64,000 bases of DNA, from assembly GCA_945874765.1 (NCBI GenBank), contig CAMCHQ010000011.1:1-64000 (forward strand), in the 5' to 3' direction. Positions 9,015 to 42,596 of the stretch are shown piece by piece (position 1 is the stretch's first letter; each line of letters begins with the position of its first letter). The notes beneath the pieces are model-generated. The model did no database searches. It saw only the letters and a program-made list of their open reading frames with translations, and was not told where the DNA came from. The position numbers and the translations under genes were made by a program. This DNA is from an uncultured Clostridia bacterium (GTDB lineage Bacteria > Bacillota > Clostridia > Oscillospirales > Acutalibacteraceae).

Positions 9015-12000
9015 TTAAGCATCATAGTTGTAAAGAGAAGCCTCTGAGTATGTTGTCTTAACATTACCGTCTGCATCCTTAGTAACGATGAATGCTCTTG
9101 CAGCAGCAGTACCGGTCATTGCCTTAATAGCATAGTTCAAACCAAACTGATCTGAATTTGTGCTGTTATAAGCAACCTTAACCTTGCCTGCGTTTGCACC
9201 TGAAGCAGTCTTGCCAACGTTTTCAAGTGTAAGGTCAGAAGCAACTGCATTCTTACCGTATACGAAGCCCTGGCTAACTACTGTTTCGCCGTCTGCCACA
9301 ATACGTGTAGCAATGAAGAGAACATCAGGCTTAGAAGCTGATGGACGATCTGTTGATGCGATAGCAACCTGAGTCTTAACGGTAGCATCACCAGCGTCAG
9401 TTACTGCTGTAAGTTCCATATTAGAACCACAGAAGAATGAGTAAGTATCGCCATAAGCAACTACTACATCGCCAACTCTCCATGATGTTGTACCGGTCTT
9501 AGAAACTGTTACCTTTGCATCATAAGGAATGTTTTCAGCAACATCATTATAAGGCTGACCGTTTACAGTAATTGTAGCGCCTGCAGCCTTAACTGTGAAT
9601 GTCTGAGTTGCATCCTTTACATAGTTAGCAGTAATTGTTGTACCCTCGCTGAGAGCGTCAATTCGATCTGCTGTAAGTGACCAGCTATCGAACTTGTAGC
9701 CAGGATATTCAGGAGCTGTAGGCTCTTTAATTTCTGTACCGCTGGTAACTTCCTGAGGAGCACCTACAACATTGCCGTACATATCAATGAATACTACTAC
9801 AAATGTTTCAGCTGTTTCTGTAAATACAGGTGTAACAGTTGTATCTGCTACAGCTGTGAATGTGTATGTCTCGTCTGTTGAAACGAGCTTGTTAGCTACC
9901 TTCCAACCTACGAATTCAGCATTGCTGTTTGCCTTAGCTGTAAGAGTTACATCAGAGTTAAGAGCAACCTTAGTTGTCTTACCGGCTGTTGCAGTCTCAC
10001 CGTTAAGAGTTGTTTCACCATACTTAGATTCTGTAACTGTTACGTTTACACCCTTAAGAGCAGGGATAGTTTCAGTCTTAAGAACCTGGCCGCAAACTGT
10101 GCAGCTTGTAACCTTTGAGCCTTCCTTATCAAGTGTAGGCTGAGTTACTACAGGATCACCTGCAGTACAGTTTTCTGTTACAGTCTCAGCAACTTCCTTG
10201 TAATCAGCATTAGCTGTTACAGCAGAAACTGCAGGCCAGCTATATGTTGTATGGCTGTGTGTCTTAGCATTGTTGTCTGACTTAGTAGCTGTGTCAGGAG
10301 TATTTGCAGCAGGAACTACAGGTGTAGCACCTTCAGCAAGCTTCTGAGTATCAACTACAGTGCCGGCAGCATTTGTAAATGTGATTGTGTAAACCTTTAC
10401 AAGACCCTTAACTGCATTTTCAAGAGCAGCAGTAGCAGCGTCAACGTCAGCCTGAACTGTCATAGCTTCAACTGTAGCCTGAGCATTAGCTTCAAGAGCA
10501 GCAGTTACCTTTGCATATGAATCAGCAGTATAATCGTCAGCCTTAACTGCCTTTGCAGCTTCGAGAGCAGCATAGTATGCATCGCCGTTAAGCTTAGCAA
10601 GGTCTCTTACGTTTTCGTGGCCGCATACTGAGCATACAGCCTTTTCAGTACCAGCCTTAGCAATTGTAGACTTAGTTACTGTTGTGTAATCACCGTAAGT
10701 GCAATTTGCTGTGTTAGCAGTTGCCTTTTCAGTATATGTGAAGTCGCCTGTCTTCTCCCAAGCGTAAGATGTTGATGTATGAGTACCGTTCTTGTTATCA
10801 ACAACTTTAGAAGCTGTGTTAGCAGGAGCAGTAGGAGCAGCGCCCTTATCAACTGTTACTTCCTTGGTTGAACCGTCAGCAAATGTGTAAGTATAAACAT
10901 CTGTTGTAGGAAGAGCCTCAAGACCCTTAACAGCATCTTCAAGTGCCTTAGCAGCAGCATTTACATCAGACTGTGATGTCATAGCCTCTACCTTAGCCTG
11001 TGCATTAGCTTCAAGAGCAGCAGTTACATTAGCATATGAAGCTTCTGTGTACTTAGAACCGTCAACAGCCTTTGCAGCAGCAAGTGCAGCATAGTAAGCT
11101 GTGCCGTCAAGTTTATCGTCGTTAGTTACATTGCTTACATAATCGCAATCAGGGCAAGTAGCTGTAAGCTTAGAACCTGAAAGGATTGTTGCCTTGCTGA
11201 GTTCTGTGTAGCTAAGAGTACAATTTGACTTAGTTGTTGTAGCAACCTCGTCATAGTTTGTATCACCTGTTACAGCAGAAACTGCAGGCCATGTGTATGT
11301 TGTTACTGAGTGTGTACCGTCATTGTTAGATACAGTCTTTGCAGCAGTGTTTGTTGAAGGAACTGTAGGAGTTTCGCCTTCCTTAACTGTCTGAGTATCA
11401 ACAACCTTACCGTTGATGTCATTGAATGTAATAGTATAAGTCTTAGTTTCAGGTGTTGAATCCTTTGCATAATCTGTCCAAATTAATGCCCAGTTAGCAA
11501 AGGTGCTCTTTGTATCATCACCAGTAATAAGATACAATTCAGGATTTACAGCATTACATGAAGGTTCGCCTGAACCGTCGAGTGAATCTCTGTAGTAAGG
11601 CTCAAATTCTGTACCGTCAATCTTTGTATTGAAATGAAATACTTCTGAAAGGTCACAATCCTTAAGTACTTCGAATGCATAAGTATAGCAAACCATACCG
11701 TACTTACCGAATTTAGCTTCGCCATCACTGCCTACGCCAAAGTAGTTAGACGTTGTTTGGTTACCGTTTACAGCAGCCATACCTGTAATAGCACCATACC
11801 AAATACCTTCTTCGTTATTGTATGTTGAGCTACTAAACTGCATTGCGTCAGAATAGAAAGCTGTACCGTTCTTAATAGCGCCCTTGGCAGTTGTATTAAT
11901 TTTCCAATTATCACGTGTTTTAGTAACAGTACCCGGAGTGGAAGCCTGAAGATATTCAGTGTCGAATGTACCTTTAAATTGACCTGACTGCATAACATCA

Positions 12001-12536
12001 ACGCCGCCAATTTCAACGGTAATAGCAATACGCTGACCTGCTTTAACATTAGCAGGGTTTACGATATTGCCGGCTTCCTTAACTGCCTCATAAGTATGAG
12101 CAGCATTAACACCATAATAATTGTTATTATACTGTTTGGTATAAGCTGAGTATGTACCGTTTGCAATAGCATCCTGTGCACCCTGCTTTGTACCTAAGTT
12201 AGAAACTGTAGCTGCAATTACAGGCTTATAGTCATTACGATGGTCTTCGAGACCATTGTTCGCATAATCGCTGATTTCAGCACCGAAATCAAAACTGCCG
12301 GCGCTAACGTCATCATTAGCGTAGCCACGATATTCAGGAGTTGACTGAAGCTTTGAAAGGCTATTGTCAACACCGTCATCAACCCACCATTTTCTGTTTT
12401 GCTTAACTGTGTAATCAGTTGAACCGAACATATCGGCTGTACCGTCAGTAGCAGCTAAAGCAGAAAACGGAACGGAGAATGCAACCATAAGAACTGCAAG
12501 AAGAACAGCTATTGCCTTTCTAAATGTCTTTTTCAC
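9015..12536 (-). CDS. Secreted surface protein: cohesin-like, FIVAR and InlB-type repeats
   Basis: A 1173-residue exported protein with a signal peptide (MKKTFRKAIAVLLAVLMVAF, cleavage near AALA/ATDG). Residues of about 100-345 look cohesin-like: VKAGQRIAITVEIGGV followed by TFDTEYLQAS and a late YAFEVL strand. Three modules then start near residues 368, 547 and 713 (YTITFNDINGKVVDTQ type), each carrying a CxxC pair (CPDC, CSVC, CTVC); the first two also contain a FIVAR-type helical stretch (TEASYANVTAALEANAQA). Two InlB/Listeria-Bacteroides-type beta repeats follow (GYKFDSWSL) and a C-terminal domain ending SLYNYDA. There is no LPXTG or dockerin, so its mode of attachment is unclear. It lies 31 bp after the X-dockerin gene, in one operon. 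The cohesin assignment is by eye and needs a profile search. Confidence 0.7.
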   Translation of the reverse strand: MKKTFRKAIAVLLAVLMVAFSVPFSALAATDGTADMFGSTDYTVKQNRKWWVDDGVDNSLSKLQSTPEYRGYANDDVSAGSFDFGAEISDYANNGLEDHRNDYKPVIAATVSNLGTKQGAQDAIANGTYSAYTKQYNNNYYGVNAAHTYEAVKEAGNIVNPANVKAGQRIAITVEIGGVDVMQSGQFKGTFDTEYLQASTPGTVTKTRDNWKINTTAKGAIKNGTAFYSDAMQFSSSTYNNEEGIWYGAITGMAAVNGNQTTSNYFGVGSDGEAKFGKYGMVCYTYAFEVLKDCDLSEVFHFNTKIDGTEFEPYYRDSLDGSGEPSCNAVNPELYLITGDDTKSTFANWALIWTDYAKDSTPETKTYTITFNDINGKVVDTQTVKEGETPTVPSTNTAAKTVSNNDGTHSVTTYTWPAVSAVTGDTNYDEVATTTKSNCTLSYTELSKATILSGSKLTATCPDCDYVSNVTNDDKLDGTAYYAALAAAKAVDGSKYTEASYANVTAALEANAQAKVEAMTSQSDVNAAAKALEDAVKGLEALPTTDVYTYTFADGSTKEVTVDKGAAPTAPANTASKVVDNKNGTHTSTSYAWEKTGDFTYTEKATANTANCTYGDYTTVTKSTIAKAGTEKAVCSVCGHENVRDLAKLNGDAYYAALEAAKAVKADDYTADSYAKVTAALEANAQATVEAMTVQADVDAATAALENAVKGLVKVYTITFTNAAGTVVDTQKLAEGATPVVPAANTPDTATKSDNNAKTHSHTTYSWPAVSAVTANADYKEVAETVTENCTAGDPVVTQPTLDKEGSKVTSCTVCGQVLKTETIPALKGVNVTVTESKYGETTLNGETATAGKTTKVALNSDVTLTAKANSNAEFVGWKVANKLVSTDETYTFTAVADTTVTPVFTETAETFVVVFIDMYGNVVGAPQEVTSGTEIKEPTAPEYPGYKFDSWSLTADRIDALSEGTTITANYVKDATQTFTVKAAGATITVNGQPYNDVAENIPYDAKVTVSKTGTTSWRVGDVVVAYGDTYSFFCGSNMELTAVTDAGDATVKTQVAIASTDRPSASKPDVLFIATRIVADGETVVSQGFVYGKNAVASDLTLENVGKTASGANAGKVKVAYNSTNSDQFGLNYAIKAMTGTAAARAFIVTKDADGNVKTTYSEASLYNYDA

Positions 12537-12567
12537 TTAGAAATCCCCTTTATTTATTTTGAAAAAC

Positions 12568-13662
12568 TCACTTTATCTCTAATCCGTTATAATAATTAGT
12601 ACCTGATGCGCAAGCATAAACTGTTGTTGCATCAGTTGCTGTTACAACACCGTCACCGTTAAGGTCATAGCTTAAATCAGTCTGCTTTGTAGCAAAAAGA
12701 TAAACAGTAGTTGCATCAGTTGCCGTAATACTACCGTCTTTATTAAAATCACAAGCCATCATAGGAATAACTGCATTGGTAATATCGGCACCGTTTACGA
12801 TAACCGAAACATCGCTGCGAGTTATTGCATAATCAGATGAGATTGAAAGATAGTAGGTTCCGTCCTTTAACGAATCAATAGAGAAAGCGTTTACACCGTC
12901 TTTAAGGGACGATGTGGTTGTACCGACAAGCTCGGTACGGGTTGAATCTGAATATACATTAACAGTATATTCGCCGTAAACAGGCTTGTTGGCAGTACTG
13001 CCATTCGCATCTGTCATAATAACAAGCGAGCCGTTTACGCTATGACCGGTTGACGGTGAAACGTCACAAGTCATTAAATATAGAGAACCCGGATAATCGG
13101 CAGATTCACTGACAAGAGCATACTCATCATCGAATCCGTCCTCGTAATTAGCCAAAACGAAAGTCTTATTCGGGTCGGTTGAAACCGAAATAGCATCAGC
13201 GGCGTCACATGCTTTTGAAAAAGTAACCGAGAAGGTTGCAAGCAATGTGCCGTCATTTGTTATTGCTGAACAAGTGTCAGAATCAGAAACAAATCCGAAT
13301 ACCAAATTAGAATCATTCGTTACGGTTCCCATTGATGATACGTCGGCGACATCTTCAGAAAGAAGAGCCTTAGGCTCACTGTCTACTGATACATCCGAAG
13401 AATAGGTTGATGTAACCTGCACAACCGATAACTCGGAAACGCCCTCTAAATAAAAGCTGACGTCATATGTACCAGCAGGCAACTTATCACCGTCGTATTG
13501 TTTGCCGTTAGAATCCTTGTATGTGCAATAAACATTCGGGCTCTCCGTTCCGAGTTTAGCAGCATACGAGGTACGAGGAAGGCACACAACAAGCGCTACA
13601 AAAACCAAAAACGCAAGTGTACCGAAAATAACACCTAATCGTTTTTTTGCAATTGTATTCAT
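12568..13662 (-). CDS. Exported cohesin-like protein with X-module and dockerin
   Basis: A 364-residue protein. The start at 13662 is chosen over an upstream in-frame codon at 13734 because AAGGAGGT lies just before it and the following residues form a signal/anchor segment (KRLGVIFGTLAFLVFVALVV). Residues of about 45-170 look cohesin-like (GTYDVSFYLEGV, then DGTLLATFSVTF). About residues 195-300 form a module shared with the 2181-aa protein (GEYTVNVY, DGTYYLSISSDYAITR, GADIT, IP). The C-terminus is a type I dockerin with two calcium loops, DFNKDGSITATD and DLNGDGVVTATD, each with Asp/Asn at positions 1, 3, 5 and 12. Having both a cohesin-like and a dockerin part is typical of adaptor scaffoldins. 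Domain identities are inferred from motifs. Confidence 0.75.
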   Translation of the reverse strand: MNTIAKKRLGVIFGTLAFLVFVALVVCLPRTSYAAKLGTESPNVYCTYKDSNGKQYDGDKLPAGTYDVSFYLEGVSELSVVQVTSTYSSDVSVDSEPKALLSEDVADVSSMGTVTNDSNLVFGFVSDSDTCSAITNDGTLLATFSVTFSKACDAADAISVSTDPNKTFVLANYEDGFDDEYALVSESADYPGSLYLMTCDVSPSTGHSVNGSLVIMTDANGSTANKPVYGEYTVNVYSDSTRTELVGTTTSSLKDGVNAFSIDSLKDGTYYLSISSDYAITRSDVSVIVNGADITNAVIPMMACDFNKDGSITATDATTVYLFATKQTDLSYDLNGDGVVTATDATTVYACASGTNYYNGLEIK

Positions 13663-13835
13663 TGGTGTTACCTCCTTGTTAAGAAATTTGCTTAATTTGG
13701 GGAGAAGCAGAATCGCCGTGAAAGGTAAAGACAAAATCGGTCAGAAAACATAAAAATATGAAACCAAGCAACTTTGGCAAAAGCCAAACACCGTGAAACA
13801 TTAAATATTTACTAAACGAAACTGCCCATAGCCTC

Positions 13836-13937
13836 CCCGCCCAAAGCGGGCATTGTATATAAACGGCGCAAAGCCGAATATATCAAAACAAAGCAAAGAC
13901 AAAACTTTGCTTAAAATAAATGATAACACAAGTTATC
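13836..13937. repeat. Run of four small hairpins in 334-bp intergenic gap
   Basis: Between the stop of the 2181-aa gene and the start of the 364-aa gene there are four successive perfect hairpins: CCCGC/GCGGG (13836-13850), CGGC/GCCG (13864-13876), AAGCAAAG/CTTTGCTT (13891-13912) and GATAAC/GTTATC (13922-13937), followed by the terminator at 13954-13983. A further hairpin TTTGGC/GCCAAA lies near 13770-13787, in the probable leader of the 364-aa gene. No open frame is supported in 13663-13996. Confidence 0.6.
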
Positions 13938-13953
13938 CGAATTTTCAAGTAAA

Positions 13954-13983
13954 ACTTCTTAGGGACTTTCGCCCCTAAGAAGT
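13954..13983 (-). terminator. Terminator of the 2181-aa gene
   Basis: The 11-bp perfect stem ACTTCTTAGGG / CCCTAAGAAGT, followed on the minus strand by TTTTAC, lies 14 nt past the stop codon. Confidence 0.75.
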
Positions 13984-13996
13984 ATAGAAATTAATA

Positions 13997-16900
13997 TTAC
14001 TTAATAGTAACGTCAGGAAGTGTGATGGATGATGCTGATGCAATAGCAAAAATTGTTGTAGCATCTGTACCTGTTACCGAACCGTCACCGTTAAGGTCAT
14101 AACGAAGATCAGCAGCCTTAGAAGCCGCAGAGAAAACTGCAGTAGCATCTGTACCGGTAATATTGCCATCCTTATTAAAGTCACATACAAGTAATGGAAT
14201 TGCCTGACCTGTGATATCAGCATTACCAACAACAATGTTTACTGTACGTGCAATAGCAAATTCAGAAGTAATTGTTGCTGTGTATGTGCCGGGAGCAAGA
14301 TCAAGGCTAATCTGGTTAGAATCAGTTGTAAGGTCAAATGCCTTCTCGAGAACAGGAGCGTTTGTGCTGTCATAAACAGTTACATTATATGTGCCGTTTA
14401 CGCCCTTATTATTAGTAGCACCCTTTGCAGATGTTGCTACAACAAGTGAAGCAGTCACGTTCTGAGTGAGTGGCTTATCTGACTGAACTGAAGGAACGAT
14501 TGTTACATCGCCGTCAACATATAACTGGTAAGGGAATGCTGATGTATCATCAAATGTAAGCTTATCGCCATTGATTGTAAGCTCAGGAAGAAGAGTATAT
14601 CCGTCAGCAACCTGAACATCAATTGAAACGGTTGAATCCTTTTCAACTGACATAGGACCTGAGTAAGCAACACCGTCAACTGTTACTGTAGCACCTGCAA
14701 CAGGAGTTACTGTAAGAGTATATGTTTCATACTCTGTAAGACCGATTTCTGCAGCCTGAAGCTCTGTATCAACTAAATAAATCTTATCGAGCTGAGCATC
14801 GTAGCCGTCCTTATCGTTAATGTTATATGTGTTAGAATTCTTGTACTTGTAATCGCCTCTGCCGTATGTAGCAAGACTAACTGCCTCAGCAAGAGCTCTT
14901 ACATATCTGTTCCAAGAAGCTGTTGAGTACTTAGTAGCGCCTTCGTTTACAAGCTTACCTGATGCGTCGAATGAACCGAAGCGAGGAGTGCTTGCAACGC
15001 CCTTCTTAGTAACTACAGCCTCAGACTTAACAGTGCCATCCTCATTGTAAGTTGCCTTAGTAGCGCTAAGGGTTCTGTAAGTATTGCCTGATGCACACTG
15101 AATTTCAGCTTCAAGCTTATCACCCTGGTAACCACGTTCGATTACCTGAGCTGAGAAGATATTGAAGAGTCTTACATATTCAGCAGCCTGAACTGAAGAA
15201 ACTTCTGAATCAGTTGTGTATGTATAAGCAATGCCTTCATCCTTAAGACTGCTCATAAGACTTGCAGCATTTGCGAATGACAAACCGTTCTTATCAACAA
15301 CCTTATTAGTTGTTGGGTCTGTGTATTCTACGTCTACAGTGTACTGAGCTTCTGCCTTCTTAGCATATTCAACCATCTTGTTGTATGTAAGAATATCGAA
15401 GTTGATTTCCTGAAGACCGTTTCTTGGAATTGAAATACCGTCATAAAGAGTCTTTGAAGAGTTGATAAGATTCTTATTTACAAGGTCAAGAACATAAGAA
15501 ATTCTGTCGTTAGCCTTTGTGATAGAACCACGGTTATCAACTAAAACGCCGTCCTCATTTGCAACGCCGGTATTTGCGATTAACTGGTTATCAGCCTGAG
15601 GGAACTTGCAAGCCCATGCATCCTTAGATGTGCAGGTATTGCCGTCAGCGTCTCTGTACTGATACTGAACCTGATAATAAAGAGGTTGATTGTCTTTGTT
15701 TGTATCCTGAGTTGTTGTTGGCTTGAGCCAAGGAGCATCAGTATACGTTGTAAGATCCCACTCGGTTGCGTACTTAACAGTGTTGGTAAGATAATAGTTA
15801 CCGTCCTCTGCCTTAGTTACGCTTGTGCCTACTGAGTCCTTACCGTTTGTTGCCGATGTAAGAGGCATTGGTGAGTAGATTGGCATTGTAGCGTCCTTAT
15901 CGTAGTAGTAAACACCATCGATACCGCCGATTGTAACACCAAGCTTTTCATTGTATTCGCCGCCTACATAAGCGTTATTCTTAACTGAGTTAGGAATTGT
16001 ATAGCTTACAGTTTCGCCCTTAACATTAAATGTTACTGTTTCGTTTGAAGTTGTGTAAGGTACATAAGCACGGTCGCCGGTAGCTGAAGTTGTAACCGAT
16101 TTAACCGGTGCATATTCAGTCTTATCTGCCGATGAAAGTGCTGAGCTTGCAGTCAACGGAGCAGCCTGAATAGAAAGAACCTTGATAAGAGCATCCTTAG
16201 CTGTAGTAAATACTGACTGATCCTTAAAGTCTGAAGCCTTATAGTTTGCCATAATCTTAGAAAGATTACTGTAGTTAGTATTAAGTGATCTTGCAGAACT
16301 GTTGTCACCGATTACGAAATCGATTTGTCCCTGCTTAGAAGCTGAACTTGTGTAGAAGTTAATCTTTGTACTGTAAGTACCTGTTGTAAGTTTTTCTGTA
16401 TCATCACTTGCAACATACTGGAATGGGTTGTTATAAACAACTGCATTGCCGCCAACTGTCAACTTACCCTTGTTAATTACAATACCAGGAACCTCACTGC
16501 CGAGTGTTACTGTAGAAAGAAGAGTATCGTACTTAACACCGTCACTCTTAAGATAGATTGAATCATATTCATTGTTAGCATCAATATGATAGCCGGCAAT
16601 GATTTTAGCATCAAGAGCTTCCTGAAGTGTATAAGCTACGTGGGTTCTGCTTTCGAACTGCTTACCCTCTTGGTTAGCTGTATCTGCAGCAGAGTTAAGC
16701 TGTTCCTGAGTATAACCGGTTGTACCGTTACGCTGCCAATCACCGAATACGCCTGAACCTGCAGAAGTTTCGACACGATAGTCGAACATACCAACCTTAA
16801 GAAGGTCACCTGTTGACTTGTTCCAATAAGCAATAGCGTTATTTGAACCAATGCTTATTGTAGTAGTCTTGCTGTCGTCAAACTTTGTTGCAGCAGTTGT

Positions 16901-19900
16901 AAGGTTATTAGTCTTATAGCTTGAGTTATCAGTATAGAAATAAACACCGTCGAAGCCTTTTTGAGCTCTGTTGCCGTTTCTAATTCTGATTGTGAAATTA
17001 GAAATGTCATTAAGGTTGCTTGTGCTGAGAACTATATTCTTAGGATAGGTAACATTGAGAGTGCCTATACTCTTAGCAACACCAACACTTACACCATTGC
17101 TATCTTTCTCAGTTTCATCTGTAAATGCACTGTTAAACTCTAAGTTACCATCTTTGTTTTCAGTATAAAGTGCATCTTTCCAACCGATTTCGTTGGTTAA
17201 GAGTTTATAAGCTGAAACTGTGTTATCGCCATAGAGAACGTTGCCGCTCTTGTCTACGATATCATAACTTACATTAATCTCTGCAGTAGCAGTTGTATCA
17301 CTACCTGAAACTGCGAATGTGATAGGAATGTTAAATGTAGCACTCTTACCCGGTTCAATCGGAGTTGTAGGATAGCCTGTTACTTTAGTAACTTTACCTG
17401 CCTGGTTAGTCATTGTAACGTCGTTAACCTTAACATAGTAACGTGAAAGCTGAGTAGCCTTACCGTTTACAATGTAAGAAGCGTTGATACCAACTGAGTT
17501 ATTTGTAATTGTGAAATTATTATTGTAACTTGAACCCTTAACGCAACCGGTCTGAACGTTCTTTTCGAATGAAGCAGTAGCCATCTTAAGCTGATGCTGA
17601 CCGAGTGTTGTTAATGCGTTAGGAAGGAAGCTGTTTACAGCCTGAATAGCGAAGCAGATACCTCTGATAATAGAGTCAGGATATGTGCTTGGACCGTTTG
17701 TGCCGTAACCGCCGAACTCAACGAAGTTACAGATAAGTTTTTGGAATGCACCCAAATCCTTACCGTCTGTACCTGCAAGAACTTTAACTTGGAAGAAATC
17801 ATCAAACGGATGAGCGCTTGTTGCGTCAGGTACAATTGTCTTGAAGCTCTGACCGCTGTAACGAGCGCCGAACAAACGATTGATGAGATCCTTAAGAACG
17901 TCATAAATTGTTACAACAATTGAAGTCTTTTGGATAGGTTCAGCAGAAACTATAGTAAGTAACTGGTTGAGGAAGTTAGATACACCGTAAAGGCCGTTGT
18001 CCTTTGCAGTACCGATATCAAGGAATGAAAGAACGATATTGTTCCAGATAAGGTCCTTAGAGTTAAATTTGCCGTAACCTGTACCTTGGAGTGTACCGAG
18101 AACAGGCATAAGCTTATTAGCTACAAGGTTAATATTGGTCCAAAGATCATTGCTTGACTTAATAAGGCTGTTACCGTTAGTGTCGCAAATACCGAGAAGT
18201 GCTGCAACACCCATAGCTCTTTCGCCCTTATTAACATCCTTCTGCATTGCATGGTCGCCTGCATAGTAGCAGATTACCGAGTTGAGAAGGTCGAAGAGTG
18301 TTGTTGATGAATTAACATCAGCTGACTCTGTCTTCCATGAGTTGCCGTTTGCATCTGTAAGCGGAACATATGCTTCAATTACATAAGCAACTGCATCACG
18401 AGCCATCGGAAGAATTGTGCCTTCAAGTGTTGCATGGATTGTTCCGTCATTATCAACTGTTACAAGGCTTGAATAGTCCTTCTTAGGCATTGAGTATGAT
18501 AAGTACTCTTTAAGACATACATAAGCTACTGCTTCTGCATCCTTACAGCCATCCCAATCTGAAGGGTGGATGATTTTCTCAAGCTTGCCTGCGCCAAGAT
18601 TAATCTGACCGATGCAAGCAACGAGCATAGGAATCATTGCTTCTTCAAGATTTGTCTCTGAAAGAGTAGCTGAAGTGCCGTTCTTTGTGTAGAATGCTTT
18701 AAGAATGTTAGCATCTGTAGCGTCTGCTGTGTACTGAACCATCTTGCAAGCGTTGCCAACGAGTGTTGAAACGATTGTCTTAATAGATGATGCATCGATA
18801 GTTTTAAGATCACCGGTTGTTGCCATTTCAGGACGTGTACCGATAATATTGCTTCTCTGTGGGAAGAGGTCCTTAACTGCTGCAACGAGTGCATCGTTTA
18901 AGCCTGCTACCATTGAGCTGTAGTTTGCATATTCTTTGTTGAAGAAATTATCAATGTTAGGAGTACCTGTTTCAGAAAAGTAAAGATTGATAGGACCTGT
19001 TGTTACGTTGAAGCCGTAATCAGCAAGTGGGCTGTATCTTAACTTAGCGAAAAGTCTTGTTTCATCGATATCCTTCCAAGAACCTGTTGAATCTTCAGCA
19101 GCAGTACGGTCATAAGTTACGTTCTTCTGAACATAAGCAAGGAAGTCCTTAGCTGAATCAAACTTATAATCCTTATATACAGCGTTTGCCCATTCATTGA
19201 GTTTAGCCTGTGTATAGTTTGAAGCAACGTCATTAGTATTCCACTGACCCTTCTGGTCAAAGTAATAATAATAGTTGTTATCAAAGTTGCCGCCGTGACC
19301 CTGGTCAAAGTCATCATTTACATGAAGGAGCTTGATTGTTCCCTTAAGAACTGTATCCCAAGCAAGATCAAGAGCTCTGTAACCGAAGTCAAAGAGATTA
19401 TCGGTTGCCTTAAGTGTTACCTTAGTGGTTGATGCTGTTGCATAACCGTTATCATCAGGAGCACCGTAAGCGAAGAGAAGAACGTTAAGCGGATTGCCCT
19501 CGTTATCCTTAAATTCATCTGAATATACAAGGTTAGGGTCATAACCGAGCTTTGCAGCTGCAGTAGCGTAGTTAGTACCGCTTGCCTTCATTTCAGCTTT
19601 AATCTTAAGATAACGTGTAGCTGATGTATCCTGGATTGCTGTCTTTGTATCGCTGTCGGTATATTCTTGATTATATGTAACAAGAACACTAATCTTATCA
19701 AGAAGCTCTGTTGTGAGTTTATCAAGAAGCTGGTCATCATAAACCCATGTTGTTGTGCCGTTCTTGAAATTAGCAATTTCTTCATCTGTATACCAATTAG
19801 TATACTGGAAAATGAGCTGCTGAGCTACATTGTAAACCAAGTTTGATTTATATGAGCTGTCTGAGAATCCTAAAAGACCGCCGACAAGGCTATATACATC

Positions 19901-20542
19901 AAGGTTAGCAATGTTACCGAGAGTACCGAGAGTGAATTTACCTCTGAGCACCTGACCTAAAACGTCTGCACCGTTATAGTCGCAAGAAAGGTTTTGGAAA
20001 ATACCGAGAACTCTTCTTACAATATCGGTTGAAGATGCAGTTTCTCTTGTAACATACCAGTCCTTTGTGGCAACAGCTTTAAAGTTAAGGTTGCCGGCAT
20101 CACCGAGATAGCTACCGTATGAGTTGAGAAGGTCTGCAACGCCGCTGAGTGTATAGAAAAGTTCATCTACACTGTGAGTACGAACAGGTACATCCTTTTT
20201 GATGATACCGAACGCATTGATTTTAAGTGTACGGCTGTTGCTGTCCCAAGTAATGTAACTTGTGATGCTTGAAGGAAGGTTTTCGAGAAGTGCATCGATT
20301 TGAGGTCCGTATTCGGCAAGCATCAAATCAGCATAGTCAAGTAAAGCTGTAGCAACCTGTTCATCGGAAAGAATAGCCCATGCCAAATCGTTATATTCGA
20401 TTGAGTCATCGGCATATGTCTTGTCACTGCTCATAGTATCGGCATAAGCAGTTAAAGCACCGGTAAAGCAGGAAGCTGCCATAAGCACTGCCATAATTAA
20501 TGCCAGAAGCTTATGTGAAAACTTTTTTGCCTTCGTTTTCAT
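13997..20542 (-). CDS. Giant secreted protein with C-terminal X-module and dockerin
   Basis: A 2181-residue exported protein with a clear signal peptide (KLLALIMAVLMAASCFTGAL, then TAYADT) and GGAGGTAAAAA before ATG. The first ~1,900 residues match nothing I recognise; they are rich in Asn, Thr, Tyr and Asp and alternate helical and beta-like stretches, with no catalytic motif seen. Near residue 1980 a beta repeat (YTLTVTPVAGATVTVDG) begins. About residues 2030-2120 form the X-module shared with the 364-aa protein (GTYNVTVYDS, PGTYTATITSEFAIAR, NADITGQAIP). The C-terminus is a dockerin with calcium loops DFNKDGNITGTD and DLNGDGSVTGTD. It should dock to a cohesin-bearing partner. Its N-terminal half shares composition and themes with the divergent 2693-aa protein. 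Confidence 0.8.
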   Translation of the reverse strand: MKTKAKKFSHKLLALIMAVLMAASCFTGALTAYADTMSSDKTYADDSIEYNDLAWAILSDEQVATALLDYADLMLAEYGPQIDALLENLPSSITSYITWDSNSRTLKINAFGIIKKDVPVRTHSVDELFYTLSGVADLLNSYGSYLGDAGNLNFKAVATKDWYVTRETASSTDIVRRVLGIFQNLSCDYNGADVLGQVLRGKFTLGTLGNIANLDVYSLVGGLLGFSDSSYKSNLVYNVAQQLIFQYTNWYTDEEIANFKNGTTTWVYDDQLLDKLTTELLDKISVLVTYNQEYTDSDTKTAIQDTSATRYLKIKAEMKASGTNYATAAAKLGYDPNLVYSDEFKDNEGNPLNVLLFAYGAPDDNGYATASTTKVTLKATDNLFDFGYRALDLAWDTVLKGTIKLLHVNDDFDQGHGGNFDNNYYYYFDQKGQWNTNDVASNYTQAKLNEWANAVYKDYKFDSAKDFLAYVQKNVTYDRTAAEDSTGSWKDIDETRLFAKLRYSPLADYGFNVTTGPINLYFSETGTPNIDNFFNKEYANYSSMVAGLNDALVAAVKDLFPQRSNIIGTRPEMATTGDLKTIDASSIKTIVSTLVGNACKMVQYTADATDANILKAFYTKNGTSATLSETNLEEAMIPMLVACIGQINLGAGKLEKIIHPSDWDGCKDAEAVAYVCLKEYLSYSMPKKDYSSLVTVDNDGTIHATLEGTILPMARDAVAYVIEAYVPLTDANGNSWKTESADVNSSTTLFDLLNSVICYYAGDHAMQKDVNKGERAMGVAALLGICDTNGNSLIKSSNDLWTNINLVANKLMPVLGTLQGTGYGKFNSKDLIWNNIVLSFLDIGTAKDNGLYGVSNFLNQLLTIVSAEPIQKTSIVVTIYDVLKDLINRLFGARYSGQSFKTIVPDATSAHPFDDFFQVKVLAGTDGKDLGAFQKLICNFVEFGGYGTNGPSTYPDSIIRGICFAIQAVNSFLPNALTTLGQHQLKMATASFEKNVQTGCVKGSSYNNNFTITNNSVGINASYIVNGKATQLSRYYVKVNDVTMTNQAGKVTKVTGYPTTPIEPGKSATFNIPITFAVSGSDTTATAEINVSYDIVDKSGNVLYGDNTVSAYKLLTNEIGWKDALYTENKDGNLEFNSAFTDETEKDSNGVSVGVAKSIGTLNVTYPKNIVLSTSNLNDISNFTIRIRNGNRAQKGFDGVYFYTDNSSYKTNNLTTAATKFDDSKTTTISIGSNNAIAYWNKSTGDLLKVGMFDYRVETSAGSGVFGDWQRNGTTGYTQEQLNSAADTANQEGKQFESRTHVAYTLQEALDAKIIAGYHIDANNEYDSIYLKSDGVKYDTLLSTVTLGSEVPGIVINKGKLTVGGNAVVYNNPFQYVASDDTEKLTTGTYSTKINFYTSSASKQGQIDFVIGDNSSARSLNTNYSNLSKIMANYKASDFKDQSVFTTAKDALIKVLSIQAAPLTASSALSSADKTEYAPVKSVTTSATGDRAYVPYTTSNETVTFNVKGETVSYTIPNSVKNNAYVGGEYNEKLGVTIGGIDGVYYYDKDATMPIYSPMPLTSATNGKDSVGTSVTKAEDGNYYLTNTVKYATEWDLTTYTDAPWLKPTTTQDTNKDNQPLYYQVQYQYRDADGNTCTSKDAWACKFPQADNQLIANTGVANEDGVLVDNRGSITKANDRISYVLDLVNKNLINSSKTLYDGISIPRNGLQEINFDILTYNKMVEYAKKAEAQYTVDVEYTDPTTNKVVDKNGLSFANAASLMSSLKDEGIAYTYTTDSEVSSVQAAEYVRLFNIFSAQVIERGYQGDKLEAEIQCASGNTYRTLSATKATYNEDGTVKSEAVVTKKGVASTPRFGSFDASGKLVNEGATKYSTASWNRYVRALAEAVSLATYGRGDYKYKNSNTYNINDKDGYDAQLDKIYLVDTELQAAEIGLTEYETYTLTVTPVAGATVTVDGVAYSGPMSVEKDSTVSIDVQVADGYTLLPELTINGDKLTFDDTSAFPYQLYVDGDVTIVPSVQSDKPLTQNVTASLVVATSAKGATNNKGVNGTYNVTVYDSTNAPVLEKAFDLTTDSNQISLDLAPGTYTATITSEFAIARTVNIVVGNADITGQAIPLLVCDFNKDGNITGTDATAVFSAASKAADLRYDLNGDGSVTGTDATTIFAIASASSITLPDVTIK

Positions 20543-21302: not shown

Positions 21303-24300
21303 ATGAGAACGAGCAAAAAAATACTCAGCTTTTTCTTAGCTGTAGTAATGGTCGTGACCACTTGCTCGGTTGGATTTACGGCGTTCGCCAAAAGTAATGA
21401 CAACCCGCTTTGGAAAACGACAAGTGTTGATGCAGACTCTGCATTTGACACGCTTAACAAATTGGCAGACCAGCTGCCATCCCTTCTCATGGGCATTGAA
21501 GCTGTAAGCAAGCCTGTTTATGAAAAGGGCGCTAAAAAGCTCGGTAAGAAAGCATCTGAACTTACCGACAAAGAAAAAGAGCAAATCGCAAGCGAGACAA
21601 CGCTTCAGGATTTACTCGGCGTATTGCAGCCGACACTTATCGGCGCACTCGCAAGCACAAGTCAAGAGGACTTTGTCAGAAATGTATTTGGTGATACCAC
21701 AACAGCTGACTTGTCAAGTTATAACTATTTGAGCGGTTCAACCGGTTCACTTGACTACTACACACTTGCTACCCTTTGCTATTCCTATATGGACAATAAG
21801 GATTTATCAAAGGATTCAAGAAACCAGCTTGAAGAGTGGTTATACGGTGCTAAGAAAGACCGTACACTTACAGGTAAAGATGCCAGCGGTAATGAGGTTA
21901 AGTACTCTGCTGACAGCCTTTGGTACTTGGCTACTCTTTATAAGTCAACCAGCAGTGCGGCAGAAAAACCTGCACAAACAGTTGAAAAAGTAGCAGAACG
22001 TTATAACAAAGCTGTAGAGAACGGTTCAATCGAAAATGTTTATTATGCCGGTTCAGAAATTATCGGTGCTACATATGATGACGCTTCTCTTGCTCAATTG
22101 AAAGCTTGCGATTATAAGCTTTCGGCTGAAGAACAAGCTGACGTTGACACCTTTATCGAAAGCACAAACAAAGAATTTGCCGTTTATGACATCAATGTTA
22201 AACTTAACGATGTCGCAGACGCTATTTTCTATTGTTACACCGATGCCGGTAAAAACTACATTAAAGCTTGTACATACCTCAGACTTCTCAATGCAGCTCA
22301 TGTTTCTGTTACAGATGTAGTTGAAAGTACAGACTTTACTCCGGGCGAATTGGATTTCAACGGCTTAGTTGTAAACGGTACTGAGAATAATGTTTATGAC
22401 AAAGTTAAGGAAACATTGAAAAAGGCTGCAATCGAATGTTTGGGTTCAGATCCCGATTTAGGAATCGATGAAAATTCAACATTTGAAGATATCGCTAAAG
22501 CAGACGGTAACAGCAGTGATTTTCAGATTAAATCTTACATTGAATACAACGTTTATTCCGCAATTTCAAAGGACTTATGTGTAAAAGTTCTTTCGGGCGG
22601 ACAAGATAACGGCAGGTTTGACAAATCACCATATTATCTTGGTCTTATTAAAGGTCTTGCAGCTCGCTTCGGTAATAACGGCGAACCTATGAGCCTTGAT
22701 AAGATTGATGCAGATATCAATGCAAAACTTCCAAAGGGCTATAACGCTAATTGGAAAGAGGGCGACAGCTTCTTCATCAGCGATTCAGAACTTGAGCAAA
22801 TGGAAGCTATTTTAAATAACTTGGCTCAAAATAACGATGCTAATAACGGAACTCCGCTTCTTACCAATTATTTCCGTGACGGTCAGTTGACATTTACAGA
22901 TAACTTGGGCGATGAAAAGAAAAAGACAATAAAGGTTCCTGATTCTCTTAATGGAAGTTACACATTAGAGTTTTGGTACAACCTTGCAAAACTTCCATCA
23001 GAGCTTAAAGGTACGGATTCAAACAAAGCAAGTGATAATCTTATTAGTGTTCTTGATGCATTTGTAGGCGACTATATGGATAATGTCCAAAGCGCTTCCA
23101 TTTCAAAAGATCAATATACATCAAGCGATTCACTTCTTATTAAGTCAATGTCAGACGAAGGCACCGGTATTAACTCAATTCCTGATGCTACCCATCATAA
23201 TAGCAAAGCTGCCATCAACAAAGCTGTTGCAGAATCTCGTAACTATGTTGCTACAAGAGTTATTTTGGGTTACTTTGGCAAAAACTTAGATGCTCTCACT
23301 AATACTAAAGAACTTACTGCAACTACTTATGACGATAATTATAAGTTCAACTGCGTTATCGATATTAATAACGAAATGAGTGAAATCGTCAAAAAGAAAA
23401 CTTCTGAATCTTCAGATGTTGTTCTTACAGATGACCAAAAGGCTATTCTCAACGGCGAAAACACAGATCTTACAGGTTCTGTAGGTACAGAGATTGTTAA
23501 CATTATCCTTAACAAGACAATCGGTGACATTGTTGACCCGTCAACAACAGTCGGCGGTATTGTAGACAGTGTTCTTAAATCACTTCTTAAGACTAATGTA
23601 AATCTTCAGGCAGTTCTTACAGACGTTTGGAAAAACCTTGTAAACGACCCGATTAAAACAGTTGTAAACCTTCTCCCTGTTGTTGCGGTAGTTGTAAACG
23701 AACTTGTTGAACCAATGGTTCTTGCAGGTGTCGGCGACTCACAAAGAAGCGACCAGAAAGGCTTCCTTTACAGTGTTCTCGGTGACGGTTTGCTTGAAGG
23801 ACTTAATGCCGATTCAGGTTCATATGTCGGTATCGGTCAGCTTGCTTGGGACCTTAACACTATGCTCCCACAGCTTATGCATTGGCTTGAAAACGACGGC
23901 AAGTATGAAGAGTTAGGCGGAACATATTGGAACGGCGGTAAGGAAGAAACAGGATACCTTACAAACTTCGATTCAAATTATAAAACACCTATCGACTTCA
24001 CAGCTAACGACATTATCTCAACTCCAAACTACGTACTTAAGTACGACAAAGTTGTAGATAGCTTCGGCAGACAAATCACATACACCGCTAACAGCGACGG
24101 CTCTTATACCTATACTTATAATGGTGTAACAGCAAATAACCTTACAGACGTTCTTGCTAACATTCCAAGCTCTGTAAAGTTCAATGTTCAGTACAAGCGT
24201 GAAGCAGGCGTACCTATGATTACAGGTATCTACATTGCAGATAAGGCGCTTAAGTATGCAAAGATCAGCGACCTTGAGGGTATCCTTAAGAAAGCTATTC

Positions 24301-27300
24301 CGGCTTCTGACGGACAGGTTGGCGCAGGTCTTTACGAATTAATCGTTGAAATTGCAAACCTCTTCACAACATCAGTTGATACTTATGTAAATACTCCATC
24401 ACTCAGAAATCAGTCAAAGGGACTTGACGGCAAGAAAGATCTTAACACAGGTCTTAACAACATTACAGTTGCAATTCCTCAACTCTTTGATATTATGGAA
24501 AATCTTGCAGCAGATAAGTACGGCGTAAGCAAAGACGCTTGGACATATTGCTACAAGGGCAAGATTGTTAAGGATTCAGACGGCGCAGTAAGCAACTCAA
24601 AGATGACAGAGTTCAAGAACTTCGCTTCAAATCCAAACCCAACAAAGATTTTTGACAGCTTCGTTGGCGTATTCGTAGAGGATTGGCTCGACGCTATTCT
24701 CGGTCTTGTAAATAATGTAATTGATTCAAAAGGCAGCGCATTTGACAAGAACCTCCCTATTATTACAGGTCTTCTTCAGTCAGTAGGCGGCTTCAGCGAA
24801 ACAAGTGCACTTACAGACCTTCTCAACAGTATCTTCCAGATTACACGTGACAGCAAGTACAGCTTCACATTTGAGAAGCAGTCAAGCGGATTCGTAGGTC
24901 TTGACAGAGACAATGCTTACTTCCTTATTACTAATGTAAATAAGCTTGTTGATGTTATTAAGGGACTTATCAATTCAATCAAGTCTGCTAACTCAGGCAA
25001 TAACAACAATAATAACAACAATAATAATTCTTCATCAACCGCTCCTACACAGGCTGTTGCAACTCCTAACTCAAAGGTTGATATTTCAGCTCACAGCAGT
25101 AAGGATATGAAGAGTGTTGACAGTACAATAGCTAAGCTTGATAAAACATTGTCATCTCTCCTTACGGATTCAAGCATTAACGGCTATTCAATCAACAAAA
25201 CAAGTAATATCGTGGCAGGCGTAATTTCATTACTTTCAAATTACATCGGTGCAGATGCATCAAATGCTACAATCGATTTACTTAATACCTATTTATATTA
25301 TCTTAATGGCGAGGATGCACGTACTCCTGATTCAAAGGGTAACGTAAATCCTAAGGATATCTACACAAACGAAGGTCTTACAACAGTAGTAGTAAGAACC
25401 TATGCTCTCGTCGAAACACTTGTTACCGGACTTACCGACAAGTTTGCATACTCTTATACATATAATAATGGTACTGCCGACGTAACAGCAAAATACAATC
25501 TTATCAGTGAAGCAGTCAACGGACTTATTTCTCCTGACTCATTATCTGTAAGAATTAAAGACACAGGCATTAAGAACGCAAGCAAGAAGCTTTCTAAGCT
25601 TGACAGCTGGAGCGACGCAATTAATGACAACGGCACACTTAACGTAAGCATTAATTGGGGTATTTCAGCAGGCAACAGAGATGAATTTATGACAGGTCTT
25701 TCAACCTCACTCAGACTTCTCACCTCTATCCTCGGCGTAGTTCTTATTGACACAGGCATTTATGAAAATGCTCTCTACCCTGTTCTTAACACAATCGCAG
25801 CAAAGACAGGTATCACAGTTGATACTCCTACTAAATTTGCTGACAAGGGCAATGCGTACCGTGACGAAGTATTCACCGGTCTTGTTAATCCGCTTGTTGC
25901 ACTTCTTGACAAGTTCCTTGATAAGCCTGCAACAACATTGCTCAACCTTGTATCGGCTATCGGCGTTGTATTAGACGATTCAACCGCTCCTACACTTGCT
26001 TCTGTTGTTTCAAGTGCAGTTAAGGCTGTTACAAACGAACTCAACGGCGCAGCTAACATTCTTAAGATTAAGAGTGACAAGCTCGGCGCAGCATCACCGT
26101 CACTTGCAGCACTTCTTGAAGGTATTGTTACAAAGACATTCGGTGATTTAACAACAGTTAACGATAAGCAAGAACTTGGACTTAAAGTTCAGGGCTATGC
26201 TCTTTCAGGTAACAACATTGTTCCTATTATTAATACCCTTCTTGCTAAGACAGGTATTAAGCTTAACAACATCAATTGGAACAAGCTTGGCAAGACATCA
26301 ACTCCTGCTCAAACACTTGTATTCGTTCTCGATTATGTTGTTGAATTTGTAAAGACAAATCATAACCTTTCCACAATCATTGGTTTGATTATGGGCAACA
26401 ACAAGTTAAGCTCAGGCATTAAGAAGCTCATCAAGTATATCGAAACAGGTAAGCTTGACGGTATGGGACTTCTTAAAATTGTAGGCAATCTTCTCAACTT
26501 CACACAGTCACCTACAGAAGTTTATTGGGCTTACAAGCACTATAAGGGAACTTCATTAAAGTTCAAGTACCCTGACGGTATTTCAGCTTATGATGCAAGT
26601 TCAGCTGTCACTCAGCTTGACAGTGCAGTTGACGCAGTTATGGCTCTTCTCACCAACTTCGGTGTAGTTGACGCTTCAAATCTTAAGGGTGTTGTAAGCG
26701 GTTTGGTATTCACAAACGCTAACCTCACTTCACTTGCTAAGGCACTTTACGGTGCACTTGACACTAAGACACTTTCACCGTATCTCGGTATGGCAGGTAT
26801 TACTGTTTCACCTAAGGGCGTTGCAGGTCTCCTTATGGATAAGAGCTACGGCAAGACTTATTCTTCAGCAGCTAAGACTCTCAAGAAGGCTAAGAGCTGG
26901 AAGAAGATTAAGACAATCAACTGGGGCTTCAAAGATGGCTCCGCAAAGGCTGAGCAGGGCTTTGTAAATGCACTTGTTGCAATTCTTCGTCCTTTCAACA
27001 GCGTTCTTAACGTATTCCTTAACGGCGGAAAGATTGACCTTACAAATATCACAATTGCTAAGGCTTCAACTTCTCTTGACATTAAGGACAGCAACGGCAA
27101 GGTAATCAGCAAGATTGCTCTTACCTATGAGCTTAAGAAGGGTGTTCTTACTCTTACAGCTAAGGATTCAATGAATAAGGATTCTAAGCTTTCAACAATT
27201 AAGCTCGACCTCAATGCACTTAACGTTGGTGTAAACGGCATTAACGGTTATGAAAGTGCAGTAGTTCCTCTTCTTGATGTTCTTCAGGTAAGCAACAGCA

Positions 27301-41141: not shown

Positions 41142-42596
41142 TTATTTTTTGGTTGTAACAGCCTTAGCCTTTGACCAAGCGCCGTAGAATTTTGCATCGT
41201 TATAGGTTTTGTAAGCACGTACTCTTACATAATATTTTTTCTTGCTCTTTAAGCCTGAAATCGACTTTGAAATACCCTTTTTGCTTTTAACATTTACCGT
41301 CTTTTTATTTTTCTTAAACTTACTGTCGGTTGCATACTCAATTTGATAGCCGGCAGCATTTTTTGCCTTGCAGCTAATCTTAACACCCTTTGATTTTGCA
41401 CTCAGCTTAACATTGCTTGGTGCCTTTGGGGCAGAAACGGTTTTATATTTGCACTTTGCATTCTTCAAGGTCTTTTCAGCCTTCGAGCCTTTAGGAACAA
41501 CATAGGATTGATAAATTTTGCCTTTGATTTGCGTATCCTTGCCTGTAATTACTATTTCTGTTTGATAGCTGTAATCCCTGCCGTCGCAATTAACGCTTTT
41601 TCCTACAAATGCGTCGCCTGCAAGTGTTTTCACTGAGCTTGGAATTATAACCCTGTCTGCCGTCATTCCGGCGAAAGCATTTTTTCCTATGCTTTTAAGC
41701 GTGGACGGAAGACGAATTTCATAAACATAATTAAAACAATATGCAAAAGCGTTATCGCCTACAGAGGTAATGCCGTTTCCCAATGTAAGAAAATAAGCTT
41801 TGTTTGTAAAATTGGTATCTATATAATATCTTGGAAAACTACCGGCATAGCAGTCCTCATAAGTGACACCGTAACCATTTACATATCTTCCGTCTTTCCA
41901 AACAAATATATCCTTTTCGTCAGGCTCGTCGGGAATTGACATGGCTCTTCTTACAGCGTCATTCATGGCATTAAAATCGCTTTTTGTCCAGCCGAGATAA
42001 TTATTAGGTATTGCGCCCTTACCTGTAATATTAATTCTGGAATTAGCCTTATCAAATTTATATTTAACAGACTTATTTTTGCAGCTTGCGGTTTTTGTTT
42101 TATATTTATATGCAGGGCTTGTAATGGCAGGCACACCGTCAAATGCGTCTTGACCTATGCTCTTTAATGTTGACGGTAAAACTACATTACCGGTTACTCG
42201 TGGAAGCGCATAAGCAAAAGCTCTTTTCCCGATTGAGGTTATACCCTCACCTATTACAAGATTTTTAACGGGTACCCCATTGATTTCAATATAATATTTC
42301 GGAAGTATTGTAGTGTCCAAAGAAAGGGCACGGTTAATATTGGCATTATCGCTAAGTTGATAATTATCGAGCACCTCTCTCTCCGTAAAGCCCATATAAT
42401 AATCCGGTATTGCGCCCGAGCCGTCTATATATAAGGTCCTGCTTTCCTTATCTATCCTATATGTGATTGTTTTGTTTTTATCGGACGGCACCTTGTCTTT
42501 TATGCCCGATTCACTCGCATAAGCAGGAGCGGCGGATACAAAAATCATTAACAATGCCATAAATGCCGACGATATTTTCAATAAAGTTTTTTTCAT
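41142..42596 (-). CDS. Secreted BspA-type leucine-rich repeat protein with FnIII domain
   Basis: A 484-residue exported protein. The signal peptide (LLKISSAFMALLMIFVSAAP, then AYASES) is followed by two blocks of LRR_5/BspA-like repeats (GEGITSIGKRAFAYALP, LPSTLKSIGQDAFDG, GNGITSVGDNAFAY, LPSTLKSIGKNAFAG) separated by beta segments. The C-terminal ~90 residues are a fibronectin type III domain (APSNVKLSAKSKGVKISCKA, then KKKYYVRVRAYK) rich in Lys. Such proteins are usually surface adhesins; no anchor motif is visible, and the basic FnIII tail may bind the wall. It has its own promoter at 42640-42668, inside the gap after the 728-aa gene. Confidence 0.88.
   Translation of the reverse strand: MKKTLLKISSAFMALLMIFVSAAPAYASESGIKDKVPSDKNKTITYRIDKESRTLYIDGSGAIPDYYMGFTEREVLDNYQLSDNANINRALSLDTTILPKYYIEINGVPVKNLVIGEGITSIGKRAFAYALPRVTGNVVLPSTLKSIGQDAFDGVPAITSPAYKYKTKTASCKNKSVKYKFDKANSRINITGKGAIPNNYLGWTKSDFNAMNDAVRRAMSIPDEPDEKDIFVWKDGRYVNGYGVTYEDCYAGSFPRYYIDTNFTNKAYFLTLGNGITSVGDNAFAYCFNYVYEIRLPSTLKSIGKNAFAGMTADRVIIPSSVKTLAGDAFVGKSVNCDGRDYSYQTEIVITGKDTQIKGKIYQSYVVPKGSKAEKTLKNAKCKYKTVSAPKAPSNVKLSAKSKGVKISCKAKNAAGYQIEYATDSKFKKNKKTVNVKSKKGISKSISGLKSKKKYYVRVRAYKTYNDAKFYGAWSKAKAVTTKK

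Follow-up and report, generated by a model that had tools for sequence, protein, structure and literature searches.

One predicted cohesin and two matching X-dockerins in three neighboring genes point to a probable minimal surface assembly in an uncultured Clostridia bacterium

The stretch of DNA considered here (the window) comprises 64,000 nucleotides of contig CAMCHQ010000011.1 from an uncultured Clostridia bacterium of the Acutalibacteraceae (assembly GCA_945874765.1). Its minus strand carries consecutive genes for secreted proteins of 2181, 364, and 1173 aa, beside which a 2693-aa secreted protein is encoded divergently (open reading frame [ORF] list; Table 1). Judged from sequence and structural models, this locus is real and conserved and probably encodes a minimal type II cohesin-dockerin assembly. 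We consider it likely that the three proteins form a surface assembly of one lock and two keys that co-evolve: the lock would be a single cohesin on the 1173-aa protein, and the keys the X-dockerins at the ends of the 2181-aa protein and of the 364-aa adaptor. What appears new is that one lock and two keys, spread over three genes, turn over in a coordinated way; among literature titles and abstract openings, no description of the locus or of a joint replacement of cohesin and X-dockerins was found.

The gene order, which an earlier note on this DNA had read as consecutive on one strand, is conserved in relatives. Scanning genome contigs once for the 2181-aa family turned up 22 loci, or 23 with the window, and 17 of these keep the four genes in order (the window, L065, L067-L077, L079, L080, L083, and L085, with an outer gene running off the contig in L070, L075, and L079). 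Five others (L066, L078, L081, L084, and L086) are cut off by contig ends with the set still incomplete, that of L078 also containing an assembly gap. L082 is the one locus that lacks dockerin, adaptor, and anchor together: 10 kb are visible beyond its large protein, which has 1863 aa and no dockerin, and genome-wide searches found neither an X-dockerin nor a match to the anchor cohesin profile. X-dockerins are present in 22 of the 23 genomes, that of L082 being the exception. The anchor cohesin profile gives one strong match (E<=3e-46) per genome in 18 of 24 genomes and none in six, namely those of L082, L066, L078, L081, and L084 and the same-genus genome G293, where adaptor cohesin and half-dockerins (see below) were also not found at the thresholds used.

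The 2181- and 364-aa proteins end in the same pair of modules, an X module followed by a two-loop calcium dockerin, as the note had recognized and as Pfam, PDB profile matches, and the structural model agree. The family profile of the larger protein matched the PDB X-dockerins 4u3s_B (2.4e-13), 4wi0_B (2.6e-12), and 2b59_B (4.4e-9), and the dockerins of both proteins lie over the Pfam cut-off (E=8.5e-11 for the 364-aa protein and 3.7e-6 for the 2181-aa protein). The N-terminal domains of the 364- and 1173-aa proteins had been described as cohesin-like, with the caveat that the lack of a cohesin fold in either would count against the proposal; a cohesin fold was predicted for both (AlphaFold2 [AF2] model, Foldseek, VIA). 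The 1173-aa cohesin matched the PDB profiles 3l8q (5.2e-7), 5g5d (5e-5), and 4u3s (6.2e-3), and its AF2 model consists of blocks of mostly 74-95 with one weaker stretch of 50-68. The best 29 rows in Foldseek are cohesins without exception, and the best 17 rows in VIA are type II cohesins, with folds outside the VIA listing left possible; type II is a nearer match for this module than type I or III. Type II cohesins are the known partners of X-dockerins, and the cohesins matched here include chains that were solved together with the X-dockerins matched by the 2181- and 364-aa proteins (4u3s, 4wi0, 2b59, and 5g5d). Within its own genome, the N-terminal profile of the 1173-aa protein yields just itself at E<1.

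The 364-aa protein carries one cohesin and one dockerin in a single chain, the makeup of a monovalent adaptor. The best match of its model is the C-terminal Coh-X-Doc of the CipA scaffoldin, and the best single-cohesin structural matches of its cohesin are mostly type I. Searched with the profile of this cohesin alone, the PDB yielded nothing but unrelated matches (E of at least 0.77), so that the assignment rests on the model and on relatives, which are over the Pfam cohesin cut-off in 3 of 23 genomes, the window protein falling below it. An apparent frameshift in the adaptor gene of CAG:217 was dropped because the stretch contains N, that is, an assembly gap. The locus proteins have no catalytic domain over the Pfam cut-off, and no CBM3, SLH domain, or cellulase was seen at the locus. 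Each of its cohesin proteins has one cohesin, and none is a multi-cohesin primary scaffoldin.

The two keys resemble each other most closely within a genome. For the 17 genomes with both, the identity of small (364-aa) to big (2181-aa) dockerin is 0.72 within and 0.35 between genomes, and the partner from the same genome is the best dockerin match in all 17; the adjoining X modules give 0.53 and 0.38, with the own partner best in 7. The triplet of residues before the last aspartate of each calcium loop, which we take to include dockerin recognition positions, agrees at 0.89 over the four loops per genome versus 0.20 when shuffled; the maximum among the shuffles was 0.32, and none of 10,000 reached 0.89. 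This comparison covers 19 genomes (the 17 with L078, which has one adaptor piece beside a gap, and L086, with a second contig), in 10 of which all four triplets are identical, and 27 different triplets occur overall. For type I dockerins, the available part of PMC5301203 singles out positions 11 and 12. The window has the triplets TAT, TAT, TGT, and TGT, an Ala/Gly step that is small beside the differences between species, and the proposal that TATD versus TGTD would mean different partners is not borne out by the agreement within genomes. Given the triplets shared within genomes, both X-dockerins most likely have one partner.

The keys in turn track the lock. In the 15 genomes with all modules, dockerin distances were compared with those of other modules after removal of the distance between large bodies (partial r). 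Against the 1173-aa cohesin, partial r is 0.58 for the small and 0.57 for the big dockerin, values reached by 0 of 2000 permutations for the small and by 0 or 1 of 2000 (two runs) for the big; against the C-terminus of the 1173-aa protein it is -0.02 and 0.02. When L080, L083, and L085 are left out, tracking stays at 0.61 and 0.59 (3 and 7 of 2000).

In two genomes, L069 and L073, three modules in three genes differ together: by sequence, the anchor cohesin and both X-dockerins belong to a second type. The identity of their anchor cohesins to ten core genomes is 0.15 and 0.17 (core, 0.36), and that of their X modules and dockerins is 0.20-0.33 (core among themselves, 0.40-0.48); large body, anchor C-terminus, and adaptor cohesin are at 0.48-0.57 (core, 0.49-0.55). 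For instance, L073 resembles L074 in adaptor cohesin (0.60) and body (0.63), with values of 0.17, 0.26, and 0.45 for anchor cohesin, small X, and big X, the modules in which it shares 0.35, 0.57, and 0.62 with L069. L069 and L065 likewise share 0.77 in the anchor C-terminus and 0.67 in the adaptor cohesin, and 0.19 in the anchor cohesin. Within the adaptor, the change point lies at about the cohesin-X junction. The body tree (23 rows) joins L073 to L074 (100/99) and L069 to L077/L075/L076 (100/97), and quick module trees unite L069 with L073 (99 for anchor cohesin, 99 for X-dockerins). In the trees of the anchor C-terminus and the adaptor cohesin, L069 stands with L065 (98 and 96, the latter including the long branch L083) and L073 with L071 (90) or L074 (87). 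The idea of one clade of L069 and L073 with a single change was rejected, as the two stand apart in the body tree. Either independent exchanges or the disappearance of one of two ancient types from many lineages could account for the pattern. Tracking and joint change together point to the cognate modules without experiment. By eye, the X-dockerin of L084 also looks second-type; its contig ends before the anchor.

Further candidate partners lie elsewhere in the genome. A genome-wide search with the dockerin model gave 11 matches at E<=1, 7 of them over the cut-off, including 3 in the window; no cohesin is over the Pfam cut-off, and each local cohesin profile matches once only. A weak Pfam cohesin match (G000:C23, E=0.028) was set aside, as it reads by inspection as another beta domain. 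A half-dockerin motif (NAKDYALLNK-like) occurs at seven sites (E<=4.2e-5). By Pfam, its bearers are four leucine-rich repeat (LRR) proteins, a GH30 enzyme with LRR, and a subtilase with LRR, and a catalytic domain is found in 2 of these 6 scanned proteins, the other 4 having LRR only, with or without a dockerin. The seventh site (G000:C9:76026-76145) sits in a short frame overlapping, in another reading frame, the end of a second subtilase. The earlier description of the system as one without enzymes therefore stands for the locus, where no catalytic domain is recognized and the two X-dockerin proteins have no glycoside hydrolase; for the genome it does not, as half-dockerins on the GH30 and the subtilase, both encoded outside the locus, and beside the second subtilase may mark cargo. 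Of 300 family genomes, 6 contain half-dockerins at E<=1e-7 and 15 at E<=1e-3, and the adaptor cohesin is present in exactly the same 6, with a weak partial match in G105. In a search of 19 genomes at E<=0.01, 18 had 2-11 matches, a few being locus dockerins, and the L082 genome had 1 (E=2.8e-4). The adaptor cohesin may thus be the receptor of half-dockerin proteins. Cohesins over the Pfam cut-off are present in 7 of 23 genomes and outside the locus in five (G302, G306, G308, G311, and G312), so that half-dockerins could bind elsewhere there.

Gene order, modules, the match of keys within genomes, key-lock tracking, and the joint change in two genomes are direct observations, from which we infer binding, stoichiometry, surface attachment, adaptor cargo, and purpose. 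The 1173-aa protein would display one type II-like cohesin, probably at the cell surface, as the lock. The same key, an internally symmetric X-dockerin, sits on the 2181-aa protein and on the adaptor, and each of the two proteins could fill the lock with its calcium-loop dockerin, for which two orientations are probable. The 2181-aa cargo is possibly adhesive or structural, and a docked adaptor would turn the site into a type I-like cohesin open to other proteins, most likely the LRR, subtilase, and GH30 proteins with the half-dockerin motif. Lock and keys would evolve as one unit and move together between lineages. That they diversify fast as a self-recognition code, with docking on kin cells only in a crowded gut and types exchanged by recombination as a three-gene unit to give mutually orthogonal pairs, is an extension we hold to be unlikely.

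Two further modules lie toward the C-terminus of the 1173-aa protein. A stalk of InlB B-repeat or List_Bact type gives Flg_new at 9.1e-6 and Flg_new_2 at 3.3e-4 in the window protein, slightly under the Pfam cut-offs, and 12 of 15 family members have it at E<=0.01. The last ~135 residues have counterparts at the ends of two further secreted proteins encoded in the same genome, with profile matches at G000:C3 (27316-27732; 2.2e-35) and G000:C1 (26413-26823; 1.1e-7); by inspection, the bearers are an LRR/InlB-repeat protein and a GH43-like protein. This shared domain is a candidate surface-retention module, possibly an undescribed one.

Several observations weigh against an assembly of one lock and two co-evolving keys. 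Pfam scans, with the C-terminus viewed by eye, showed no SLH domain, LPXTG or other sortase motif, LysM, or C-terminal membrane segment in the 1173-aa protein, so that we call it anchor-like only. The genomes of L066, L078, L081, and L084 have X-dockerins and no anchor cohesin match anywhere, which may reflect incompleteness because these loci leave the contig before the anchor. The small dockerin tracks its own X module (0.71; big X, 0.40) more than the cohesin, and when L069 and L073 are left out together with L080, L083, and L085, r falls to 0.42 (39 of 2000) and 0.36 (169 of 2000), so that part of the tracking signal is the joint change in those two genomes. The cohesin and X-dockerin trees are quick trees with long branches, and for the small dockerin alone the nearest relative of L069 is L067, not L073. 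The half-dockerin profile was built from the genome itself, and its co-occurrence with the adaptor cohesin is therefore partly kinship. Two further points, the adaptor cohesin's weak correlation with its own dockerin and codon sharing between the keys, also feed rival explanations.

The strongest rival, which we rate as possible if clearly the less favored reading, is an ordinary enzyme scaffold: the locus would be the anchoring end of a cellulosome-like system in which half-dockerin enzymes (GH30, subtilase) bind the adaptor. The seven half-dockerin sites, their co-occurrence with the adaptor cohesin, and a genome without any cohesin over the Pfam cut-off all fit. However, most of the half-dockerin proteins scanned have no catalytic domain in Pfam, the seventh site is in another frame than the second subtilase, single-cohesin adaptor and anchor provide for one cargo per site, and the giant protein proposed as X-dockerin cargo lacks any known catalytic domain. 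In a quite improbable alternative, the adaptor cohesin binds X-dockerins, so that 364-aa chains run head to tail and are capped by the 2181-aa protein; self-aggregation has been proposed for Amy4 of the Ruminococcus bromii amylosome (available part of PMC5814915). Cohesin and dockerin do share one adaptor chain, and the adaptor dockerin weakly tracks the adaptor cohesin (partial r 0.39, 22 of 2000), but the 2181-aa dockerin shows no clear tracking (0.26, 163 of 2000), the best single-cohesin matches of this cohesin are mostly type I, and in L069 and L073 it is ordinary (0.48-0.51; core, 0.50) with both X-dockerins second-type.

It is similarly doubtful that the X-dockerins are alike merely through gene conversion between neighboring genes, without function. 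Codons at identical dockerin residues are shared in 402 of 676 cases (0.59 versus 0.46 expected from codon use; 17 genomes), and sharing is clearly above expectation in six, the window (0.71 versus 0.47), L071, L075, L076, L080, and L085, which suggests recent gene conversion or duplication there rather than selection alone. However, the other 11 lie within 0.11 of expectation and still have dockerin identities of 0.63-0.86, and conversion between these two genes leaves unexplained why their dockerins track, and change jointly with, the cohesin of a third gene; selection and gene conversion both seem to act. Finally, given the fold comparisons above, it is highly improbable that what look like cohesins are beta-sandwich adhesin domains of a generic kind that bind no dockerin.

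The two giant secreted families are kept across loci, the X-dockerin of the 2181-aa protein being their sole recognized domain: Pfam recognized none in the 2181-aa body in six family members scanned, and single-sequence scans of the 2693-aa protein gave no dockerin and no Pfam match over cut-off. A homologue of the latter is at least partly present in all 23 loci, as two ORFs in L076, L082, and L085. Homology between the two giants was dropped as unproven, the hhalign alignment covering the signal-peptide region only (41 columns). Also in the window, at 41142-42596, a 484-aa secreted protein has a BspA-like LRR look by similarity and inspection. In relatives, X-dockerins also occur on BspA-like LRR proteins of ~1640-2000 aa (L062:10500-18443, L063:9018-16406, and L103:1834-7857); in L062 and L063 these adjoin an apparent extracytoplasmic function (ECF) sigma factor and a membrane LRR protein, maybe its anti-sigma, by inspection. 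A recurrent two-gene unit of relatives (~1740 aa and ~400 aa), both products ending near single-loop NAKDYA-type motifs, was not seen in the genome of the window in the X-dockerin and half-dockerin searches.

Table 1. Features of the locus and related features elsewhere (window positions unless a contig or locus is named)
Feature	Position	Strand	Basis or remark
1173-aa single-cohesin protein, anchoring scaffoldin-like	9015..12536	-	ORF; conserved third gene after 2181- and 364-aa genes
C-terminal domain of 1173-aa protein, candidate surface-retention module	9015..9431	-	Profile matches in own genome
InlB B-repeat / List_Bact-type stalk, ~residues 832-969 of 1173-aa protein (approximate)	9630..10043	-	Pfam
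Type II-like cohesin module, ~residues 105-302 of 1173-aa protein	11631..12224	-	PDB profile matches and predicted fold
364-aa adaptor (cohesin, X module, dockerin)	12568..13662	-	
X module and dockerin, ~residues 206-361 of 364-aa protein	12580..13047	-	
Type I-like cohesin, ~residues 41-203 of 364-aa protein	13054..13542	-	
2181-aa secreted protein ending in X-dockerin, inferred main cargo	13997..20542	-	ORF
X module and dockerin, ~residues 2024-2181 of 2181-aa protein	13997..14473	-	Dockerin_1 3.7e-6
2693-aa secreted protein, conserved partner gene	21303..29384	+	ORF
Second subtilase-like gene	L121:3418-5970 = G000:C9:73417-75969		By inspection
Pfam-level cohesins outside locus in relatives	L105:618-3761; G302:C21, G306:C18, G308:C22, G308:C11, G312:C42		
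Two-gene NAKDYA-type unit	L097:6270-12728, L098:6772-13344, L099:1494-7946, L100:6228-12641		

A cohesin type of a large cellulosome has many enzymes to serve, and its specificity can therefore hardly drift. Here one lock apparently serves two keys, and the 27 different triplets of 19 genomes come with a candidate partner next door, which makes the specificity code, and its switching without breaking the assembly, directly testable. The locus offers candidate orthogonal cohesin-dockerin pairs for engineering and suggests that, in little-studied Clostridia, giant proteins lacking known enzyme domains are assembled at the surface.

The earlier label of a candidate new scaffold system is fair, although its parts are familiar from type II anchoring of cellulosomes. 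The same modules anchor clostridial cellulosomes (CipA/ScaA X-dockerins and type II cohesins; PDB 4fl4, 2b59, and 4u3s): the adaptor is a Coh-X-Doc trimodule like the end of CipA, and the type II cohesin is on a separate protein. Unlike in those systems, each protein has one cohesin rather than many, and an X-dockerin is also found on a giant protein without a known enzyme domain. Closest in logic, as far as the available text goes, is the sca cluster of Ruminococcus flavefaciens, in which ScaE is a single-cohesin anchor for the X-dockerins of the scaffoldin ScaB and the non-enzymatic adhesion protein CttA (PMC5301203), and ScaC is a monovalent adaptor, a named class (PMC11557425). That system is described with LPXTG sortase anchoring, type III cohesins, carbohydrate-binding modules in CttA, and many enzymes, whereas at the present locus the cohesin is type II-like, a sortase motif was not seen, and the 2181-aa cargo has no recognized body domain. 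In the portion available for R. flavefaciens FD-1 (PMC2930009), truncated (group 2) dockerins, LRR-linked dockerins, and peptidase cargo recall the half-dockerin proteins, and its authors suggest a possible surface-structuring role; there, however, these belong to a cellulosome that counts 222 dockerin proteins, compared with seven half-dockerin sites and no Pfam-level cohesin in the 2.27-Mb genome here. The R. bromii amylosome, as excerpted (PMC5814915), is likewise from gut Clostridia, with few scaffoldins and with both cohesin and dockerin in Amy4, but its cargo consists of GH13 enzymes and its X modules are not associated with cohesins or dockerins. The Limousia mucinolysome (PMC12997984) and "scaffoldin-containing" non-cellulolytic bacteria (PMC11557425) extend cohesin-dockerin systems beyond cellulose breakdown, as here; the available parts of these sources describe no joint replacement of lock and keys, and Limousia differs in its multi-cohesin scaffoldins and many dockerin enzymes (PMC12997984).

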